Assembly (NCBI GenBank): GCA_013821585.1
Contig: JACDGO010000037.1
Span: 1 to 11,076 of the forward strand
DNA: 11,076 nucleotides
Source of the DNA: Sphingomonadaceae bacterium
GTDB taxonomy: Bacteria > Pseudomonadota > Alphaproteobacteria > Sphingomonadales > Sphingomonadaceae
Direction of reading: 5' to 3'
Shown piece by piece: positions 1,590 through 11,076 of this stretch (positions within the stretch are counted from its first letter, which is position 1; every line of letters begins with the position of its first letter). The notes beneath the pieces are model-generated. The model worked only from the letters and a program-made list of their open reading frames with translations, did no database searches and was not told the origin of the DNA. A program made the position numbers and the translations under genes.

Positions 1590-4500
1590 TCAAGCGGCGA
1601 TCGCGGGAGCGGGCTCAATCCTGTGAAGCTTGAACCCGTCCGTGCCGATTGCTCGGTTCGCGACTTCGATCAGGTGGGCGTGGTGGCTAAACACAATCAC
1701 CTGGCTGTGCTCGGCTGCCGCCGCGAGCACCTTAAGGAGCGCTGCCGATCGCGCGTCATCGGCAGTGATGAGCAGGTCATCGCAAACTATCGGCAATGCC
1801 CCGGCCCCGGCTCGCCCTTCGATGGAGCCGAGGCGAAGCGCTAGATAGAGTTGGTCGCGAGTGCCTTCACTGAGTGCTTCCACGCCGACTTCGCTGCCGT
1901 TGGCGCGGCTCGCCAGAATCACCGGCCGATCGTCATTCGCGTAGCCGATCGTGAGCCCGGTGAAGGCACCACCTGTCACCTGTTTGAACAATGCACCCGC
2001 GCGCGCGATCAGCGGCGCCTGGTTGGTGGCGCGGTGACGATCGAGCATCCAGCGCAGCAACGCCGCCGCGGTCACCGCCTGGATGTGATCTTCCGCTGCC
2101 TGCGCCAATGCGGCGGTGGTGTCGGTCGCGGTCTGCTGTGCGTCGGCAGCGGCGCTCTCGCTGGCGGCGCGACCCGCTTCGTCATCCGCCGCGTTCAATG
2201 TTCGGCCCACGACCTCGCGCTCCGCGGCGACCTCACGCCGGCGATCCTCAATGCGGGCGCGATCAGCCACTTCCTCTTCGATCGACAGGGAAGCGATTTC
2301 GAGAGCGAGAGCGTCAAGCCCTGCTCCGTTGTCGGTGCCGGCAAGCTCCCCGAGTGCGTCTCGTTCGACGGTACGAGCAGCATCACGCCGGCCGATGCCG
2401 ATGATCATCTGATCCAACTCGGTCTCAAACGCTACGCCCGCCAGTTGCATCATCTCTTCAATTGAAGCTCCGACGTTTTTGAGCCGGCGTTGAATGCGTT
2501 CCAACTCGCCAATGAGGCGGGTGCGCTCAATGGTGTGCGTCTTGAGTGCCTCTTCGCTGCGAACAGCAGTGCGAAGCGAGACTGCAAGCTGGCGTGCCTG
2601 GTCGACGGGCTCTCCCTCGCGCGCGATTCCGACGACGGCGAGCACCTCAGCGAGCTCGACTTCGAAAGCGGTACGGTCCTGTTCAATACCGGTCACTTGA
2701 CGCTGGAGGCTGTCGCGCGAGCCGGTATCCTCATTGACCTGTCCCAACGTCTCCAGTGCATCGGCCACGGCGGTTTCGTCGGCATCACCGGGCAGCCCGG
2801 CTTCACGAACGAGCCGCTTCAACTCCTCCTCAAGGTCGGCGCGCCCCTTCGCAAGCTCCGCGTCTTCCTCGCCAAGTTCGGCAAGCGCCTGCTCGACCGA
2901 AGCTGCCTCGGCCGCAAGGCGAATACGAGTAGCGGCGATCCCGCTCAGTTCAGCAACACGCTCGTTCGCGCGCAGCACGAGCGTCGGATCGTCGATCGTC
3001 GCTGCAGCGCCGCCGCAAGTGGAATAGGCTCTGGCGATCCCGGCGCGCGCCTCCCTGATCCGGGAGTTCAAAACCTTAAACGCCTGTTCCGCCGTTGTCC
3101 TTTCCTGCTCCGCCTCGAGCGCTGCTACCCGCTTCGTCAGCCATCCGGCGAGATCCGCAGGAAGAATCGACCGCTCGAAGCCCAGCGCGTGCATGCGGGA
3201 GTCCCAGCCCTCCTCGATCTGCTTGAGCTCCTCGCGATACTTCTCCTCCCGCTTGTTTGACGCAGCGAGCAGGGCCCTCGCCTCATCCGCCGCCACGATC
3301 ATCAGGGCATATTCGGCCACGCGTGCAGCTTCGGCGTCGCGCCGGTCGGCAAGCTGATCTGCCCACGCGACCGCTTCGGCAAGGGCTCGCCCGGCTTCTT
3401 CGTCATCTGCCGAACGAGGCGCCACAAATCGCTCGCGCACATGCCTAACGTGTCCATCCCGCAGGTCACGTGCGGCCGCCACGGCTTCTGGCGTCGGAAG
3501 CGTCCCGCCAGCGACCAGGCTCTTGAGTTTGGCTTCGGCCCGGATCGCGCTGGCCTCGGCCGCCTCCGCGTCCTTTCGCGCTGCTGTCACATCCACCAGC
3601 GCGGCTTCACCGGCGCGGCGTGCCTCCGCCGCCTCCGCCTCGGCCGGCGGAAGAAGCTCTTGCAGCGATGCAGCCGACCCTCGCCAAGGCGCCAGATCGG
3701 CCAGACGCTCGGCCGCTAGAGTGCGCTTACGATCCGCGCCCGTCCGCGCGTCCTCAAGCCACTGCTCGCTGTCAGCGGGGAGGAGAGCAAGCGCAGCGGT
3801 TAGCTCGGCCACCCCTGCGTCGTCTCCGATCACGGAACGGTCACACTCGATCCGCTCGCGATCGCGGACAAGCTTGGCGCTCTCTTTCAGGGTAACCGAT
3901 TCGCGCGATTTCGCCTGCCGTCTCGTCTCGAGATGCGCCGCGGCGCGCTTGCGCCAGCCTGCGGATGGAAGAGCCGCGTCCGGCGCAATCCGCGCTTCTG
4001 CGCGGGTAGCAGCGATGCGCGCGTCGATCCGCTCAAGCTCGAAACGCCGGCGCTCCAGGTCGACCGCCGCCTTCGCGATCACCGGGCGCCTCTCCTCCAG
4101 TGCCTCGATCCGTTCACGCTGAATAAGGATGCTCCCGGGCGCCTCCACGCCCGCGATCGCCGCGTCGACGCGCCCGAGGTCAGCATCCACCTGAACCTTG
4201 AGTTCGGTAGCGGTGAGGCGCTCGGCGCGATCCGTAGTCAAACGCGCAGCTGCGCCCAGCGGCAGCTCGGGCAGTGATTCGAGGTCGGCGAGTTCGCCGC
4301 GCGCGTTGGCGAGGCGCGCGGAAGGCGCGCGTGCGCGCCCCACCCTGTCGAGGCGCGCTTGCTCTCGGTCGAGTGCCTCAGCTTCGGCAATTAGGGCGGC
4401 GCGGCGTTCTTCGGCTTGGGTCCGGCGTTGCCGCGATTGCGTCCACTCAGCGTCGCTGATCGATGTTTGGCGCACCTGCGCGAGCGCTTCCGATCGCTCG

Positions 4501-5057
4501 CGCATCAGGCGGTTCACGGGCGGGTTCTGGCCGCCTGGCTTGAACAGCGCGCTGGCCGCCTCGGTCAGACGGGAAAGCTCGTCGCCGATATGAGACACGC
4601 CCGTTCCGGCCTCGAGCGTGATCCTGGCAGCATCGTCGCGGCCGCCGAGGATACTCTCGCCGCCCTGCCGCAGCTTGGCATGATCAAGCCCGAACATGCG
4701 CTCGAACCCCGCTCGGTCAATACCGCCCAGCAGTCGCACGAGTGGATCAGTCGCGAACGGCGCGCCGTCGGCGTTGAGCAACGTGTCTCGATTGCCCTTG
4801 CGCCGCGTTACATCCAGGAGTTCGCCGTCATGCTCGATCAAGGCGCGAAGGCGGAGCTGGGCGTAGTCGTAACGCCAGTTCTGGCTGCTCTGGCCGGGGA
4901 TGCCGAACAGAAAATCGCCGATCGCCTGGAGCGTCGTCGATTTGCCGGCTTCGTTAGGGCCGACGACAAGATGAAGATCGGGATGCCCCTCACCGAAATC
5001 GAACACGCGGTCAGCAAAGCCGCCGTAACGCACGAGTTCCAGCTGGCGAAACCGCAT
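1590..5057 (-). CDS. yhaN: YhaN-family Rad50/SMC-like AAA ATPase
   Basis: A 1155-residue ABC/SMC-type ATPase, expected to form a complex with the phosphoesterase encoded just upstream and to use ATP to clamp and present DNA ends, as SbcC or Rad50 does with SbcD or Mre11. The N-terminus MRFRQLELVRYGGFADRVFD leads into Walker A GPNEAGKST (residues 33-41) and the Q-loop region GQSSQNWRYDYAQLR typical of YhaN (AAA_27). Residues of roughly 180-1000 are Ala/Glu/Arg-rich coiled coil. The C-terminal ATPase half carries the ABC signature LSEGTRDQ (1062-1069), Walker B LPIVCDDLL (1088-1096) and the switch histidine in VIVFSHH (about 1125). No CxxC zinc hook is seen in the coiled coil, matching YhaN and unlike Rad50. 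The start is supported by GGGAAGGGGA just upstream and by the TGATG one-base overlap with the phosphoesterase gene. Somewhat longer than Bacillus YhaN. The frame is fully open and intact. Confidence 0.9.
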   Translation of the reverse strand: MRFRQLELVRYGGFADRVFDFGEGHPDLHLVVGPNEAGKSTTLQAIGDFLFGIPGQSSQNWRYDYAQLRLRALIEHDGELLDVTRRKGNRDTLLNADGAPFATDPLVRLLGGIDRAGFERMFGLDHAKLRQGGESILGGRDDAARITLEAGTGVSHIGDELSRLTEAASALFKPGGQNPPVNRLMRERSEALAQVRQTSISDAEWTQSRQRRTQAEERRAALIAEAEALDREQARLDRVGRARAPSARLANARGELADLESLPELPLGAAARLTTDRAERLTATELKVQVDADLGRVDAAIAGVEAPGSILIQRERIEALEERRPVIAKAAVDLERRRFELERIDARIAATRAEARIAPDAALPSAGWRKRAAAHLETRRQAKSRESVTLKESAKLVRDRERIECDRSVIGDDAGVAELTAALALLPADSEQWLEDARTGADRKRTLAAERLADLAPWRGSAASLQELLPPAEAEAAEARRAGEAALVDVTAARKDAEAAEASAIRAEAKLKSLVAGGTLPTPEAVAAARDLRDGHVRHVRERFVAPRSADDEEAGRALAEAVAWADQLADRRDAEAARVAEYALMIVAADEARALLAASNKREEKYREELKQIEEGWDSRMHALGFERSILPADLAGWLTKRVAALEAEQERTTAEQAFKVLNSRIREARAGIARAYSTCGGAAATIDDPTLVLRANERVAELSGIAATRIRLAAEAASVEQALAELGEEDAELAKGRADLEEELKRLVREAGLPGDADETAVADALETLGQVNEDTGSRDSLQRQVTGIEQDRTAFEVELAEVLAVVGIAREGEPVDQARQLAVSLRTAVRSEEALKTHTIERTRLIGELERIQRRLKNVGASIEEMMQLAGVAFETELDQMIIGIGRRDAARTVERDALGELAGTDNGAGLDALALEIASLSIEEEVADRARIEDRRREVAAEREVVGRTLNAADDEAGRAASESAAADAQQTATDTTAALAQAAEDHIQAVTAAALLRWMLDRHRATNQAPLIARAGALFKQVTGGAFTGLTIGYANDDRPVILASRANGSEVGVEALSEGTRDQLYLALRLGSIEGRAGAGALPIVCDDLLITADDARSAALLKVLAAAAEHSQVIVFSHHAHLIEVANRAIGTDGFKLHRIEPAPAIAA

Positions 5058-6307
5058 CAGTCCCCTTCCCCGAGCCGCGCTTCGACGAGCGCGCGGGCGG
5101 CACGGACCAGCGCCTCACCGTCCCGTGCCCGGGACGACGCGAGCAGTGGCGCGATGTCGGGATCGTCGATGTCGGCCGGCAGCTTGGCGGTCAGCGGCGC
5201 GACTGCACTCTCGACCGCACGGCGGCAGTCGGGATCGTCCAGGGCCTGCGCCAGAAGCTCCTGAAGCTCCAACGGGAGACCCATCGGTAGCGCCGTGTCT
5301 CCCGCCATGATCTTCACACGTTCAATCCAGAGCGCGTCCGAGACGCCGGCCGAGTGGCCGCGCACCTCCGCTTCGAACCAGGCCGGGTCAGCCTTCAGTC
5401 GCTGTGCTAGGGGCCCGTCGACCTCGATCGAGACCCGGGCGGCCATTGGGCGGCCGTTCGCCCCGAGCACGGCTGGACGGAGTTCGTCCTGTATCGCCGC
5501 GAGCGCCTCGATCGGATCGCGTGCGCTGCTCGCATCGACCCGGGCATGGGCCCAGCGCACCTCGTCGGTAGCGCGGTGCTCGACGTGCACGATGGCACCT
5601 TCCTCAACACGCACCAGGACGGCACCCTTTGGTCCGGTTTCGCGGATGTGCCGCCCCTGGGTGTTGCCGGCAAAGACAATATGCGGGTGGTCGGACCGGA
5701 TCGCATGGTCATGGACGTGGCCGAGAGCCCAATAGTCGTGCCCTGCCGCCTGCAACTCGCCCAGGCTGCAGGGCGCGTAATTGGCATGGCCCTCGTGGCC
5801 GTCGAGCGCGGTATGGAGCAGTGCGACGTTCAGCATGCCGGCAACCGGTGGACAATAGGTGGACGCGATGTTCTCGGTTGTCGCCGCTTCCTTGTAGCTG
5901 CGGCCATGGATGGCGACGCCGAGATCGTCAAAGCGCACCGTCTCACACTTCGCGCTCTTGAGCTTGTAGACGCCTTCAGGTGCTGTGAGGTGCCGCGTGA
6001 CGCGGCTGTCGGCATCGTGGTTGCCGAATACGATCACTGAACGGATGCCAGCCCGAGCAAGGCGAGCCAGCTGCGCGATGGCGAACTGGCCTGTTGACTG
6101 GTCCTTCCATGCGCCATCGTACAGGTCGCCAGCGATCACCACGAAGGCCGCGCCCTCCTCAATAGCGAGGTCGACAATATTCGAGAACGCCTTGCGCGTG
6201 GCGCCGCGTACCAGCTGTGAGAACGCCTCATCCTTCCGGGACAAGCCGTTGAGCGGGCTGTCGAGGTGGATGTCGGCTGCGTGGATGAAGGTGAGATTGC
6301 GGGGCAT
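5057..6307 (-). CDS. yhaO: YhaO-family Mre11/SbcD-like DNA exonuclease (calcineurin-like phosphoesterase)
   Basis: A 416-residue metallophosphoesterase, the nuclease partner of the SMC-like ATPase; cytoplasmic, processing DNA ends with a two-metal centre. All phosphoesterase motifs are present: IHAADIHLDSP with D12 and H14, AGDLYDG with D61, FGNHDAD with N96 and H97, ALLHTALDG with H165, and ALGHVHDH with H197 and H199. The segment FAGNTQGRHIRETGPKG (about 212-228) is the family's conserved loop after the last motif. The C-terminal third is helical and would dock on the ATPase. The frame stays open back to 6469, but the extra residues are unlike the family, and MPRNLTFIHAADIH matches the usual beginning, so 6307 is chosen although its Shine-Dalgarno is weak. 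Length fits the family (about 400). It overlaps the next gene by one base and is divergent from the DUF262 gene, sharing a 221-bp gap. Confidence 0.9.
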   Translation of the reverse strand: MPRNLTFIHAADIHLDSPLNGLSRKDEAFSQLVRGATRKAFSNIVDLAIEEGAAFVVIAGDLYDGAWKDQSTGQFAIAQLARLARAGIRSVIVFGNHDADSRVTRHLTAPEGVYKLKSAKCETVRFDDLGVAIHGRSYKEAATTENIASTYCPPVAGMLNVALLHTALDGHEGHANYAPCSLGELQAAGHDYWALGHVHDHAIRSDHPHIVFAGNTQGRHIRETGPKGAVLVRVEEGAIVHVEHRATDEVRWAHARVDASSARDPIEALAAIQDELRPAVLGANGRPMAARVSIEVDGPLAQRLKADPAWFEAEVRGHSAGVSDALWIERVKIMAGDTALPMGLPLELQELLAQALDDPDCRRAVESAVAPLTAKLPADIDDPDIAPLLASSRARDGEALVRAARALVEARLGEGD

Positions 6308-6528
6308 CGCGTACCATCTACCATCTCGTGCATCGCAACGAAAACTCCATCGTAAGGACGCAACGACAGCCTCTCGCTGTTGGCGTTTACGCATCAGAAT
6401 GCGAGCTCCGACCCATTTGCAGACATTCAGCGTAATCGAAGCGCCACCCAGCTTTGGACGTTCATTCATGCAGCTTGGCGGCTCGGCGCGCGGTAGACAG
6501 ACCGACTGATCGGGATCAGGAGATCCTC
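6308..6528. promoter_or_regulatory. Divergent intergenic region between the YhaO-like and DUF262 genes
   Basis: This 221-bp gap must hold promoters for the minus-strand YhaO/YhaN pair and the plus-strand DUF262 gene. I cannot name a convincing sigma-70 pair on either strand. The only clear signal is the Shine-Dalgarno AGGAG at 6518-6522, six bases before the DUF262 ATG. It is flanked by GGATC (6513-6517) and GATCC (6522-6526), which could form a small hairpin with the Shine-Dalgarno in its loop. Confidence 0.45.
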
Positions 6529-7469
6529 ATGCAGCTCAATCCGGTACATCTCACGATAAACAAGCTCCTTGAAGGGCGGCTATTCAAAATTCCAGGGTAC
6601 CAGCGCGCCTACTCCTGGGGGGGAATCAGCGGACCGATTTGTTCAGGGACATCGAGGAGGCGCATCGGTCGGGCCGCGATCACTTTTTGTCGACAGTCGT
6701 CGGTCTCTCGTGCGAGACGATCGCCATCGGTGCCGACGAGTTTCAGGTCGTCGAACTCGTGGACGGTCAGCAACGCGTCACTACGCTAGTGATCCTGTTG
6801 AAAGCCATCGAGAAGGCGTTGGATGCCGACGATGCAGTCGTCTCGAAGGCAAAGACTGGTCTCGCGGACCTTCTCGTGAAGGGCGACGAGCACAGTCTGG
6901 TGCTGCTGCAGACGAACCACGACAGCAGCCATGTCTTCACGGACTATATAAGAAAGGGTGTCGTGGACCAGAAGCTGGTCGTCACGGCGGCAGACCAGAA
7001 CGTCGTGGATGCAATCGATGATTGCGAGCGGTTGGTCGCGGGCTGGGCCGGTGAAGGGGCGCTGGTCGGCCTTCTTGGAACCATTCGGAACAGGATGTCG
7101 ATGATCCTCCACGAGGTCGCCGACGAGTCTGTGGTCTACCGGGTGTTCGAGGTGCTCAACAGTCGTGGTCTCGACGTAAAATGGGTAGACAAGCTCAAGA
7201 GCCAGTTGATGGCATCAATATACGAGCACGTCCCCGCCGGCACTCGGGAACGCGGCCTCGCGGACATGCACGTGATCTGGCAGGGCATCTACCGCACGAT
7301 CGGCCTCGATGCCGATAATGCCGACGATGCCAAAAGTTGCTTGTTCTATCGCTTCGTCGCTCATCGCGGCATAGACAGGAAGCTCCGCTACAAGGGCCAA
7401 ACGCACCGCAGCGATCTCCGGCAGCGCCAACGTCCGAACAACCGCTGCCGCAAGTTCGAAGGGTGCTAG
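6529..7469 (+). pseudogene. DUF262 (GmrSD-type restriction) protein, frameshifted and 3'-truncated
   Basis: DUF262 is the GmrS-like NTPase domain of GmrSD type IV modification-dependent restriction enzymes and some BREX-type proteins; it usually precedes a DUF1524 HNH nuclease domain. Start ATG 6529 has a good AGGAG six bases upstream. Residues 1-30 read MQLNPVHLTINKLLEGRLFK then IPGYQRAYSW, the family's first motif. At the G7 tract (6617-6623) the frame slips. Adding one G gives W-G-G-N-Q-R-T-D-L-F-R-D-I, matching the W-x-x-x-Q spacing, and the sense continues with FQVVELVDGQQRVTTLVILL (the DGQQR catalytic motif) and VYRVFEVLNSRGLDVKWVDK. After HVIWQGIYRTIGL (to about 7304) homology ends and the frame becomes the antisense of the helicase gene until a TAG at 7467. 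The nuclease half is absent. The product should be non-functional unless frameshifting restores the front half. Family certain, state inferred. Confidence 0.8.
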
Positions 7470-10400
7470 CCCGTGTGTAGGGTCGTCAGCAGCGACCAGA
7501 CCCAGGTCAGCGATCAACCCCGTGGCCCGCGCTTCAATCGCAGCCTGCTCCTCGATAAGCTCGCCCGAAATACACTCCTCGAGCAGTTTGTGGAGGATGA
7601 GTCCGCGCTCACGTCCGCCCTGTACGTTCGCGACGACGGCAGGGAGTTCGTCATCGCCTGCCGCGAGCACGAGCGGGGCTGGCTTGCTCGCCCCGGCATC
7701 AATCGCCTCGCTTCGGCTTGGTACGATCCACTCGAGCTTGCTCGTCGCCTCGTCAATCGCGACTGCTTCGCTTCTAAATATTTCCCGCGTCTGCTCATTC
7801 GCGGGCTCATCGGGTCGCGCGCCAATATCAGCAGGTAAGTGCGCCACGTCGATTGGCGGCAGATTGGCAAGATCGAGGTCGAGCAGCTGCGACCAGGTCC
7901 TTGTGCCTGGCGGCAGGCTTGGGCGCGGCAACACAAGTAGTTCCCGAGCGCGCGTTGCTGCCACATACCACAGACGGACGCGTTCGCGCTCGAGCTCATC
8001 CTGCTCTGCTTTGCGCACGACGTCATACCCGTCGGGCATCGCGCCAAAGACAGACATGTACAAGCGCCCTGTGTCGCGCTCGACGATCGGGTCTTTCCGG
8101 CTGATGATGCTCGTCATCATGTTGATCGGTATGACGATCGGCCATTCGAGCCCTTTGGCCGCGTGCACGGTGACGAGGGACACCGCGTCCTCCTGCGCGT
8201 CGGGACGCGCTTCCGCCGCGCGTGTCTCGTCCTCCCATGCGCCAGTCATGTCGTCGGCAAACGCGCGCAGTCCCCGGACGCCATAGGGACGCGCAAGGCT
8301 CAGGTAGAGATCGACATTAGCGAGAGGGCGCTCGGCTTGGCCTCCGTGCCGCGCCAGCACAAGCGGACGAACACGGATCATATCGATCGCCTCGCCGAGC
8401 AGCTGGTGCGGAGTCGTCCCGTTAATACGCTTGCGCAGCGCCTGCAGCTGCTCGAGCACAGCACGCGCAACGTCGTTCGTGATCACGCTCGTGTCGACGT
8501 TGACTGACAGCTGGGGCAGCCGCTCGAGAATTCCTTCCTTGCGCGGTTGCGCCCATGTGAGATCGAGCAGCTGCTCTTCGGTTAAGCCCACAAGCGGCCC
8601 GCGCAGCAGCGCGCAGAGTGCAAGCATATCGCGCCCGTCGGCAAGCACGCGGGTAAGCGCTATGAGATCCTGGATTTCCTGCCGACGGTAAAAGCCCTTG
8701 CCGGCCTGCGTCGCGACCGGAATGCCGCGCGCCTCAAGCGTCGCCTCGTAGCGCCAGAGGTCGGTGCTGGAGGGTGCAAGCAGCGCGATGTCGCCCGCGT
8801 TGCACAGGCGCTGGCTGCCACCCCGCCGGTCAATGATGGCCTGGCTGCCAATGATTCGCGCGCAAAGCTCGGCGACGGCGTCAGCCTCGCAGTCGCGCCT
8901 AACTTCCGAGCTCGCTGTGCCTCCGTCGCCGCCACAGTCGACGTCGAGCGCGGCGACGCACAGCGCTCCCTCGTCGTCGCCATGGAACGCGTCGAGAGGC
9001 GTGAAGCCCGGCTGCGAGCGCGCGGTCGAGAGCGGCTCGGAGAAGCGGTCGTTCACGTAGGTGAGGATCGACGTACACGAGCGGAAGTTTGTCGAGATTG
9101 AGAGGACGTCGTCGGGCGACCGCTCGCGGATCGCCTCGCGCGCCTGCAGATAGGCGACGACGTCGGCACCCCGAAACCGGTAAATCGCCTGCTTTGGATC
9201 GCCGACAAGGAACAGTGCCCCGGCCCGTAGCCGATAGGCTGGCCAGTCTTCTTGGTCGGCCCCAGGCTCCGCGTCCCCGCACAGCCGCCAGAATATCTCC
9301 GCCTGCAGTGGGTCAGTATCCTGAAATTCGTCGACGAGCAGGTGTGTATAGCGGGCGGCAAGCGCCTCACGGACCGACATGTGATCGCGGAGCAGCGCGC
9401 GCGCGGCGAAGATCAGATCGTCGAAGTCCAACGACGCAATCTCGCGCTTTCGCTGCGTGAACGCGTCGACGATTGGGTGCGCCGCTTGCAGCAGCCCTGC
9501 GATAACATGACCCGCGGCGGCTTGACGAAGAGCCGTCCACGCCGAGCAGCACGCCTCGCGAAGCGCCGAGGCCCGTTCGTCGAGCAGGTCCCCTTGCGCG
9601 TTCGGCAATCCGGCAAGCTTTGCGGCAGTCTTCCACTTGCCCTTCTTGCGGTAGCTGCCGAACTCGCCACTGGCCGTGAGCAACGCCTTGGCGGGCAGCA
9701 TCGTCAGCAGCGTGACGAGCGATGCATCGGTACCGACGTCGCCGAGCGCCTCGAGCGCACGCGCCATCGTCTCGAAATGCTCGGCCTCGTTGAGCGTCTC
9801 GACCTCGTGCGCTGATGCAGTCATCACAAAGGTCATGAAGCGACCACTGGCCTCGACAAAGCTTCGCGAGAAGTCGCCGAGCGCAGGTGTCGCAGGTGCG
9901 GTCAGCTTTCGAGCACTGCGCAGCTTTGCAGCCGTCGCGCGGAGCAGGCCGACCGCTTGACCCGGGTCGCGATAAACAAGTTCGGCGACAAGGCTCTGAG
10001 TACTGCGGTCGAGCTCGTCGCGCAGCCAGCCCTCGAGAATGTCATTGAAGAGCCGCTCGGCCACCGCCGGATCGATCAAGGTGGCGCCGGGGTCGATGTT
10101 CGCCTCGACCGGGTAGGGCTTGATCAGGCGCTGGCAGAAGCCGTGGATCGTCGAGCAGGTAATCTCGTCGATCTGCGCGCCCGCCTCCGCAAGCGCGACG
10201 GACTGCTCGGGCGACAGCCCGGCGGGCAGGGCGAGGTCGAGCTCGCGCGGAACCTCGCCTTCGAGCAAGGCGTCGACGAAGTCGCGGACGCGGCCGAGCA
10301 GCTCGCTGGCGGCAAGTTCGGTGAAGGTGACCGCCGCGATCGCGCGCGGGCGGACGCCGGCGGCCAGCAGCAGCGCGATGCGTCCGGCAAGGATCGCCGT

Positions 10401-10505
10401 CTTGCCCGAACCCGCCCCGGCCTCGACAAGCAGCGAGCGGTCGTGCGTGGTCATGGCGACAAGCCGTGCTGGGCTATCGGAGATCGTCAGGGTGACCGCG
10501 TTCAT
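7215..10505 (-). CDS. UvrD/AddA-like superfamily 1 helicase with a lost C-terminal nuclease core
   Basis: A 1096-residue ATP-dependent DNA translocase related to AddA/RecB, expected to unwind DNA from ends together with the nuclease encoded immediately upstream. SF1A motifs are all present: VEAGAGSGKT (28-36, Walker A), VTFTELAASEL (59-69, Ia), CSTIHGFC (117-124), LLVDEFQDTDPLQ (389-401, Walker B), LVGDPKQAIYRFRGAD (433-448), STNFRS (471-476), VTVHAAKGLEWPIV (778-791) and RLWYVAATRARELLVL (844-859). The C-terminal nuclease domain begins at RERGLILHKLLEE (965-977) and VAELPVYAA (1039-1047). The following GxxD...DxK catalytic segment is missing: from about residue 1050-1067 the sequence is antisense to the DUF262 gene and runs to a chance stop at 7215. 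The helicase should still fold; its own nuclease activity should be lost. The start overlaps the upstream stop as TGATG. The genuine gene portion ends near 7305-7358. Confidence 0.85.
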   Translation of the reverse strand: MNAVTLTISDSPARLVAMTTHDRSLLVEAGAGSGKTAILAGRIALLLAAGVRPRAIAAVTFTELAASELLGRVRDFVDALLEGEVPRELDLALPAGLSPEQSVALAEAGAQIDEITCSTIHGFCQRLIKPYPVEANIDPGATLIDPAVAERLFNDILEGWLRDELDRSTQSLVAELVYRDPGQAVGLLRATAAKLRSARKLTAPATPALGDFSRSFVEASGRFMTFVMTASAHEVETLNEAEHFETMARALEALGDVGTDASLVTLLTMLPAKALLTASGEFGSYRKKGKWKTAAKLAGLPNAQGDLLDERASALREACCSAWTALRQAAAGHVIAGLLQAAHPIVDAFTQRKREIASLDFDDLIFAARALLRDHMSVREALAARYTHLLVDEFQDTDPLQAEIFWRLCGDAEPGADQEDWPAYRLRAGALFLVGDPKQAIYRFRGADVVAYLQAREAIRERSPDDVLSISTNFRSCTSILTYVNDRFSEPLSTARSQPGFTPLDAFHGDDEGALCVAALDVDCGGDGGTASSEVRRDCEADAVAELCARIIGSQAIIDRRGGSQRLCNAGDIALLAPSSTDLWRYEATLEARGIPVATQAGKGFYRRQEIQDLIALTRVLADGRDMLALCALLRGPLVGLTEEQLLDLTWAQPRKEGILERLPQLSVNVDTSVITNDVARAVLEQLQALRKRINGTTPHQLLGEAIDMIRVRPLVLARHGGQAERPLANVDLYLSLARPYGVRGLRAFADDMTGAWEDETRAAEARPDAQEDAVSLVTVHAAKGLEWPIVIPINMMTSIISRKDPIVERDTGRLYMSVFGAMPDGYDVVRKAEQDELERERVRLWYVAATRARELLVLPRPSLPPGTRTWSQLLDLDLANLPPIDVAHLPADIGARPDEPANEQTREIFRSEAVAIDEATSKLEWIVPSRSEAIDAGASKPAPLVLAAGDDELPAVVANVQGGRERGLILHKLLEECISGELIEEQAAIEARATGLIADLGLVAADDPTHGLAPFELAAAVVRTLALPEIAAVRLALVAELPVYAAMSDEAIEQATFGIVGIIGIEADRAVDALPDHVHVREAAFPSAGGDVLVY
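7305..7331. repeat. Three tandem 9-base units at the DUF262/helicase junction
   Basis: CTCGATGCC, GATAATGCC and GACGATGCC follow one another without gaps; each ends in ATGCC. They sit at the point where the plus-strand DUF262 protein and the minus-strand helicase protein both stop resembling their families. They encode LDADNADDA on the plus strand and the GIVGIIGIEA-type sequence on the minus strand. The repeat may mark a recombination or slippage scar. Confidence 0.5.
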
Positions 10506-11076
10506 CAGGCCGCATCCCAGACCGTGGCCGCATCGCCCAGCGCTGCTGCCACGGCAGCAGATTTCCGGCGGACATAGCTGTTGGCGGCGTTGGCTGGCAG
10601 CGCAAAGGCAAAGTCGTCGTAGTCACCGCCGTTGTCCGGACCGATCAGGGCACGCCCGCCGCGCAGGTTGTCGCGCGCGGCAAGCAGATAAACGGTGAGA
10701 TCGCCCAGCACGGCTTGCGGGTCGTCGAGATGCCGCGACGTTTCGGCCTTGGGAAAGAGCAGCGCTGCGTCGATGGCGATGTCACGCCCGAGCAGCGCGC
10801 GCACGGCAAAGGCATAGAGGCAGCGCTGGAGCTCGCGGCCACCACGCAGCGCTCCGTCGTCGCTTGGCAACTTGCCGCTTTTGTAGTCGATGACGCGAGC
10901 CCGGTCGCGCGTTTCCGATAGATCGAGGCGGTCGATATATCCCGAGATCGCAAAGTCGACCTGGGGGACGACGACTTGCCTATCCGCATCCCATGGAAGT
11001 GCATCGGGCCCTTTGGGTGTCTGCCCCCCGAACGGAACCTCGGTATAGCTCACCTGTCCTGGCAGATGGGTCTCGT
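10505..11076 (-). CDS. PD-(D/E)XK nuclease, AddB-like, C-terminal part (5' end off the right edge)
   Basis: The frame is open through the right edge (ETHLPGQVSYTEVPFGG at the edge), so only the C-terminal 190 or so residues are visible. It is the RecB-type nuclease domain (PDDEXK_1) found at the end of AddB and related proteins. The catalytic elements are in order: Glu in YTEVPFGG (near 11041), Asp in ISGYIDRLDL (near 10933), Asp and Lys in VIDYKSGK (10897-10874), and the QxxxY-like ELQRCLYAF helix (near 10820). The first three are the metal-binding acid and DxK set. It ends in a TGATG overlap with the helicase gene, indicating translational coupling and a joint complex. It could belong to a full AddB (inactive-helicase plus nuclease) or to a stand-alone nuclease; the missing 5' part would decide. 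This nuclease site looks intact, unlike the helicase's. Confidence 0.82.
   Translation of the reverse strand, partial: ETHLPGQVSYTEVPFGGQTPKGPDALPWDADRQVVVPQVDFAISGYIDRLDLSETRDRARVIDYKSGKLPSDDGALRGGRELQRCLYAFAVRALLGRDIAIDAALLFPKAETSRHLDDPQAVLGDLTVYLLAARDNLRGGRALIGPDNGGDYDDFAFALPANAANSYVRRKSAAVAAALGDAATVWDAA

Follow-up and report, generated by a model that had tools for sequence, protein, structure and literature searches.

Single-chain Type IV restriction proteins of the GmrSD type combine a GmrS (DUF262, PF03235) with a GmrD (DUF1524, PF07510) domain. GmrD has an E/D-H-N-N motif. The available text of PMC4619093 assigns a DGQQR motif to GmrS and describes the DUF1524 part as a predicted HNH endonuclease. 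In AddAB, the 3'-ended strand is cut by the AddA nuclease and the 5'-ended strand by the AddB nuclease (PMC4824097, as far as its available text goes). The locus described here contains parts of genes that resemble both kinds. It shares with the GmrSD-type proteins the GmrS domain with its DGQQR motif, and the kept part matches proteins P0124-P0136 at 78-91%, a Sphingomonas gene at 83% and a Kozakia plasmid gene at 82%. Unlike these proteins, it is frameshifted and cut before the DUF1524/HNH half. As in AddA of AddAB-type helicase-nucleases, a UvrD-type motor is encoded beside an AddB-like PD-(D/E)XK gene; unlike AddA, the motor protein is devoid of the C-terminal DWK nuclease motif and falls far below the AddA equivalog cut-off. 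The locus is probably the product of one rearrangement, most likely a deletion, in which a GmrSD-type gene, broken in its middle, and a convergent AddA-like helicase gene, broken in its 3' part, became fused at no more than 6 bp of common sequence. Such an event would have removed the DUF1524 nuclease half, the PD-(D/E)XK nuclease tail of the helicase and whatever stood between them.

The window, i.e. the whole stretch of DNA that was analysed, is the entire contig C276 (11,076 bases), one of the 537 contigs of a 2.8-Mb draft genome that is 91% complete and 2.3% contaminated. From right to left, the minus strand encodes the end of an AddB-like protein, the AddA-like UvrD helicase, an SbcD-like phosphoesterase and an SbcC-like ATPase. 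The DUF262 gene is located on the plus strand between the helicase and sbcD and starts at 6529. The features are:

1590-5057, minus strand: SbcC-like AAA_27 ATPase (PF13514, E 1e-68)
5057-6307, minus strand: SbcD/Mre11-like phosphoesterase (PF00149), the divergent neighbour of the DUF262 gene
6529-6627, plus strand: first 33 DUF262/GmrS codons, read in the frame used upstream of the frameshift (82% identical to P0124 residues 1-33)
6617-6623, plus strand: seven consecutive G where the DUF262 frame shifts and the matches to P0124 change frame
6615-7327, plus strand: kept DUF262 (GmrS) half up to the junction, DUF1524 half missing (90% identity to P0124; PF03235 above cut-off)
7322-7327, unstranded: breakpoint interval CGACGA, at most 6 bp compatible with both parent genes, judged by the codons of relatives
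7328-7469, plus strand: continuation of the DUF262 frame into helicase antisense as far as a TAG stop, with no family similarity past NADDA
7215-7322, minus strand: 35 foreign codons and stop of the helicase frame, i.e. DUF262 antisense, in place of about 61 family residues
7323-10505, minus strand: residues 1-1061 of the AddA-like UvrD helicase, which retain the helicase motifs (15 relatives at 55-59% identity; PF00580, PF13361)
10505-11074, minus strand: AddB-like PD-(D/E)XK protein (PF12705), C-terminal 189 residues with a DYKSG motif; the contig end cuts the gene

The longest SbcD frame starts at 6469; similarity to the proteins of four loci starts only at residues 49-58, and 6307 is the likely start of sbcD. 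The SbcC-like gene is scarce in the family (6 of 149 genomes including the source genome, at E 1e-60), and the nearest SbcC/SbcD pair, in G341, is 44% and 64% identical at the amino acid level. At the left contig end (2-621), a HipA-like N-terminus (PF13657, slightly below cut-off) and a HipB/Y4mF-like HTH gene are found, and a stretch of DNA that is 69% identical to this region is located elsewhere in the source genome (G000:C357:6714-7388). For a minus-strand frame of 78 aa (890-1126), a 74.5% match over 51 aa was found in L032 (8256-8408); the intact Sphingomonas DUF262 gene lies about 1.6 kb downstream of this match. The DNA of 932-1060 has a 76% match in a congener, G376.

Up to the junction, the DUF262 remnant is closely related to intact genes. 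Residues 30-269 of P0124 (558 aa) are 90% identical to the translation of 6615-7334, and PF03235 is detected in the window at 62.4 bits (cut-off 33.2) with a DGQQR motif in the translation. The intact relatives P0124-P0136 are 553-567 aa long and extend beyond the junction; PF07510 is found at residues 427-544 of P0124 and is absent from the window frame. Both DNA alignments, to the Kozakia plasmid gene (L011) and to the Sphingomonas gene (L032, itself 77% identical to P0124 over residues 1-554), stop at 7330, in GCCGACGA-GC. In the other direction, DNA similarity starts at the DUF262 gene's own start codon, which lies behind a divergent spacer and is separated by 221 bp from the likely start of sbcD. 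From this start codon the DUF262 frame is not continuous and switches at 6617-6623. The frameshift in the G7 run, on which the earlier note is silent, could be a slippage mutation or a sequencing error; if real, it shows separate decay of the DUF262 gene. Truncation and, provided that the sequence is correct, the frameshift make the remnant a pseudogene. Matches of the DUF262 part in PADLOC (HEC-06, Orf5, SspE) were generic and were set aside.

The helicase is truncated at the same place from the other side. Its domains are well recognized (PF00580, 4.4e-52; PF13361, 3.2e-20), and its named relatives, among 120 listed, are mostly from sphingomonads and other alphaproteobacteria. Homology to the 15 aligned relatives extends as far as the V of ATFGIV-D, encoded by GTC (7323-7325); all of these relatives (1123-1160 aa) run on beyond this position. 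The lost segment of about 61 residues includes DGxPELVIDWKSDV. The motif DWKSD, absent from the window helicase, is retained in 21 of 22 relative genomes, the exception being G080; these are the matches besides the source genome in sets of 296, 397 and 385 genomes, with the internal fragment G837:C33 excluded and a second G665 copy (motif present) not counted separately. The lost tail is a predicted nuclease on the basis of this motif and of a marginal PF12705 match in the tail of intact P0004 (23.0 bits, cut-off 22). On the NCBIfam AddA equivalog TIGR02784 the window helicase reaches 266.3 bits (cut-off 860.75), a score that was obtained for this protein and not for its intact relatives. The best solved structure matching the family profile is AddA (3u44), over the motor part only (15-859), and an AddB-like gene adjoins the helicase in the same order in all seven loci examined. 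A truncated pair of this kind would keep only AddB-type activity by analogy with AddAB, and the window helicase, a motor without its own nuclease motif, may still be made. PADLOC matches for the helicase (RTasHel, GajB) were likewise generic and set aside.

The alignments show where the homology of each gene ends and which domains are lost, and they place both ends at the same few bases, in agreement with the common break that the earlier note had proposed from the letters alone. Both proteins have intact relatives that run on beyond the junction, and the overlap of 255 bp on opposite strands that had been reported there is present between the DUF262 frame (6639-7469, plus strand) and the helicase frame (7215-10505, minus strand). 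The interval given for the break, 7305-7358, contains the breakpoint; its end points, 7304 for DUF262 and 7358 for the helicase, were each placed slightly early. At the junction, the DUF262 relatives L011 and L032 read GCC GAC GA(A/G). On the other strand, the helicase relative L017 reads GTC GAT, and other relatives have GCC or GCT followed by GAT or GAC. The codon GTC is common only to L017 and G080 (GCC or GCT in the other four), and the following codon is GAT or GAC in all five readable relatives. The base before CGACGA matches the DUF262 relatives and not the helicase GAT/GAC codon; the base after it agrees with the helicase and differs from the GAA/GAG that the DUF262 relatives have there. 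The overlap of 6 bp is an inferred maximum, with relatives used as proxies for the lost parent sequences. When genes of relatives were joined at random (n=200,000), an overlap of at least 6 bp occurred with a frequency of 0.0024 and one of at least 4 bp with 0.022. A repeat search of 6250-7700 found no repeat at the junction; it returned two direct families, both weak, and a single inverted pair of 72% (7104-7128 and 7574-7598). Scans for promoter-like and terminator-like sequences gave chance level only.

The genomic neighborhood was compared with that of relatives. None of the 28 named DUF262 loci (flanks of up to 10 kb, shorter at contig ends) has a match to sbcC, sbcD or the AddB-like gene; one of them (L046) has the sole helicase match, a weak one (29%), and the small frames of the window (78-aa or HTH) have matches in L032 and L040. 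Neither DUF262 nor sbcCD was found in the seven helicase loci (15 kb each), and one of four sbcC loci (L030) has a weak helicase match. Across these 28, seven and four loci, there is no conserved DUF262-helicase or DUF262-sbcD neighborhood. Thus the undeleted arrangement that the earlier note had proposed to look for did not turn up: no relative locus examined pairs a DUF262 gene with an adjoining helicase gene, so the ancestral orientation and adjacency are only assumed. DUF262 relatives were found in one of 296 genomes of the order (E 1e-20) and one of 385 of the class (E 1e-80), in each case the source genome itself, which is too few to recover the parent arrangement from them. A DNA search of six congeners gave no match to the helicase, DUF262 or sbcCD genes; two of the six match only small pieces within 932-1558. 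In viral contigs, 19 stretches fit a pattern, none was confirmed, and no DUF262 relative was found.

An origin of the junction as an artefact, either as a chimeric molecule from whole-genome amplification or library preparation or as a misassembly, is unlikely but carries some weight. The source genome is a draft in 537 contigs, the junction was not found elsewhere (no exact match in viral contigs, and the tail only in its own cluster), and the join may have the inverted geometry that is typical of multiple displacement amplification. In the available text of PMC1855051, 85% of the chimeras from this procedure are inverted and 76.8% show complementarity of 2 bp or more, up to 21 bp; they join opposed segments at short homology, as the window junction may do, depending on the ancestral orientation; convergent genes meet there with an overlap of at most 6 bp. 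With most amplification chimeras being inverted and joined at short homologies, the geometry of the junction fails to discriminate. The window junction differs from such chimeras in being recorded on two contigs. An identical junction-spanning protein of 276 aa (P0123) was recorded from a contig of 1,804 bases and is encoded in the window; the helicase (P0001) is listed with a longest contig of 11,076 bases and P0123 with one of 1,804. The shorter record is taken as a second assembled contig of different size with the same junction, although possibly from the same sample. Assembler word lengths far exceed 6 bp, which speaks against misassembly at so short an overlap, and the severed halves were not found in the source genome.

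This last result also bears on the kind of rearrangement. The lost halves were not detected elsewhere in the source genome (G000, 91% complete), neither with full-length relatives as queries nor, at E ≤10 and without a positive control, with the missing parts alone; their absence from the genome is supported but not proved. A balanced inversion or translocation, which leaves the halves elsewhere, is therefore disfavoured within this completeness. Any real rearrangement other than a simple deletion, including capture of an sbcCD-DUF262 segment, appears rather improbable, even though neither sbcCD nor DUF262 was found close to the helicase in relatives and the parts look accessory in the genus (none of six congeners matched in the DNA search). 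Of the two routes that the earlier note had offered under a single event, deletion or insertion of a DUF262 fragment into the helicase end, the single event is kept and deletion fits better, since the DUF262 gene retains its beginning, with the divergent spacer ahead of its start codon; insertion of a random fragment is probably not what happened. The simplest interpretation is a deletion between convergent genes, and we infer that a single event, a deletion guided by short homology, was responsible.

One further question is whether the truncated proteins represent a conserved form. The earlier note had named close relatives with exactly these C-termini as the finding that would overturn its reading. 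Among 450 candidates, the chimeric helicase tail matches only the window's own cluster (P0001, three member sequences), and conserved C-termini are rejected on this ground. A different truncation is seen in the helicase of G080 (L012:6700-8100, on G080:C2), which stops after ATFGVV at the same codon as the window helicase. The bases after ATFGVV open an insertion sequence and provide the stop codon. This element, which we take to be IS3-type from its transposase, has the ends TGACCGGCCCCC and, inverted, TGATCTGCCCCC, and what is presumably a Tn3-like transposase frame lies beyond it. No separate tail match in G080 was found among the matches listed.

It is barely credible that the truncation is a retained, useful form in which a nuclease-less helicase cooperates with the AddB-like nuclease encoded next to it. 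In its favour, the helicase has an open frame and retains its motifs, the AddB-like neighbour has a DYKSG motif, and a different event has ended the helicase of G080 at this codon too; however, the chimeric tail occurs in no other protein cluster, and the G080 end is an insertion-sequence boundary next to transposon-like frames. There is only a slight chance that the C-terminal nuclease of the AddA-like family is dispensable and has been lost recurrently at one codon, by deletion in the window and by an insertion sequence in G080, leaving a working helicase with a single AddB-like nuclease. That two independent losses fall on one codon could be a coincidence.

The junction, at which a phage-defence-type gene and a DNA-repair-type helicase gene meet with their broken ends, is thus most probably an unremarkable scar left by a single deletion, and as such it looks like a one-off gene loss and not like a new system. 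Junctions at short homology that truncate genes are already known. The locus shows, within a few bases, how a single event can strip the nuclease halves from two neighbouring accessory DNA-processing genes, and it is a warning that the proteins of 276 aa and 1096 aa recorded from it are truncated chimeras. Otherwise, it represents ordinary gene decay in an accessory region.
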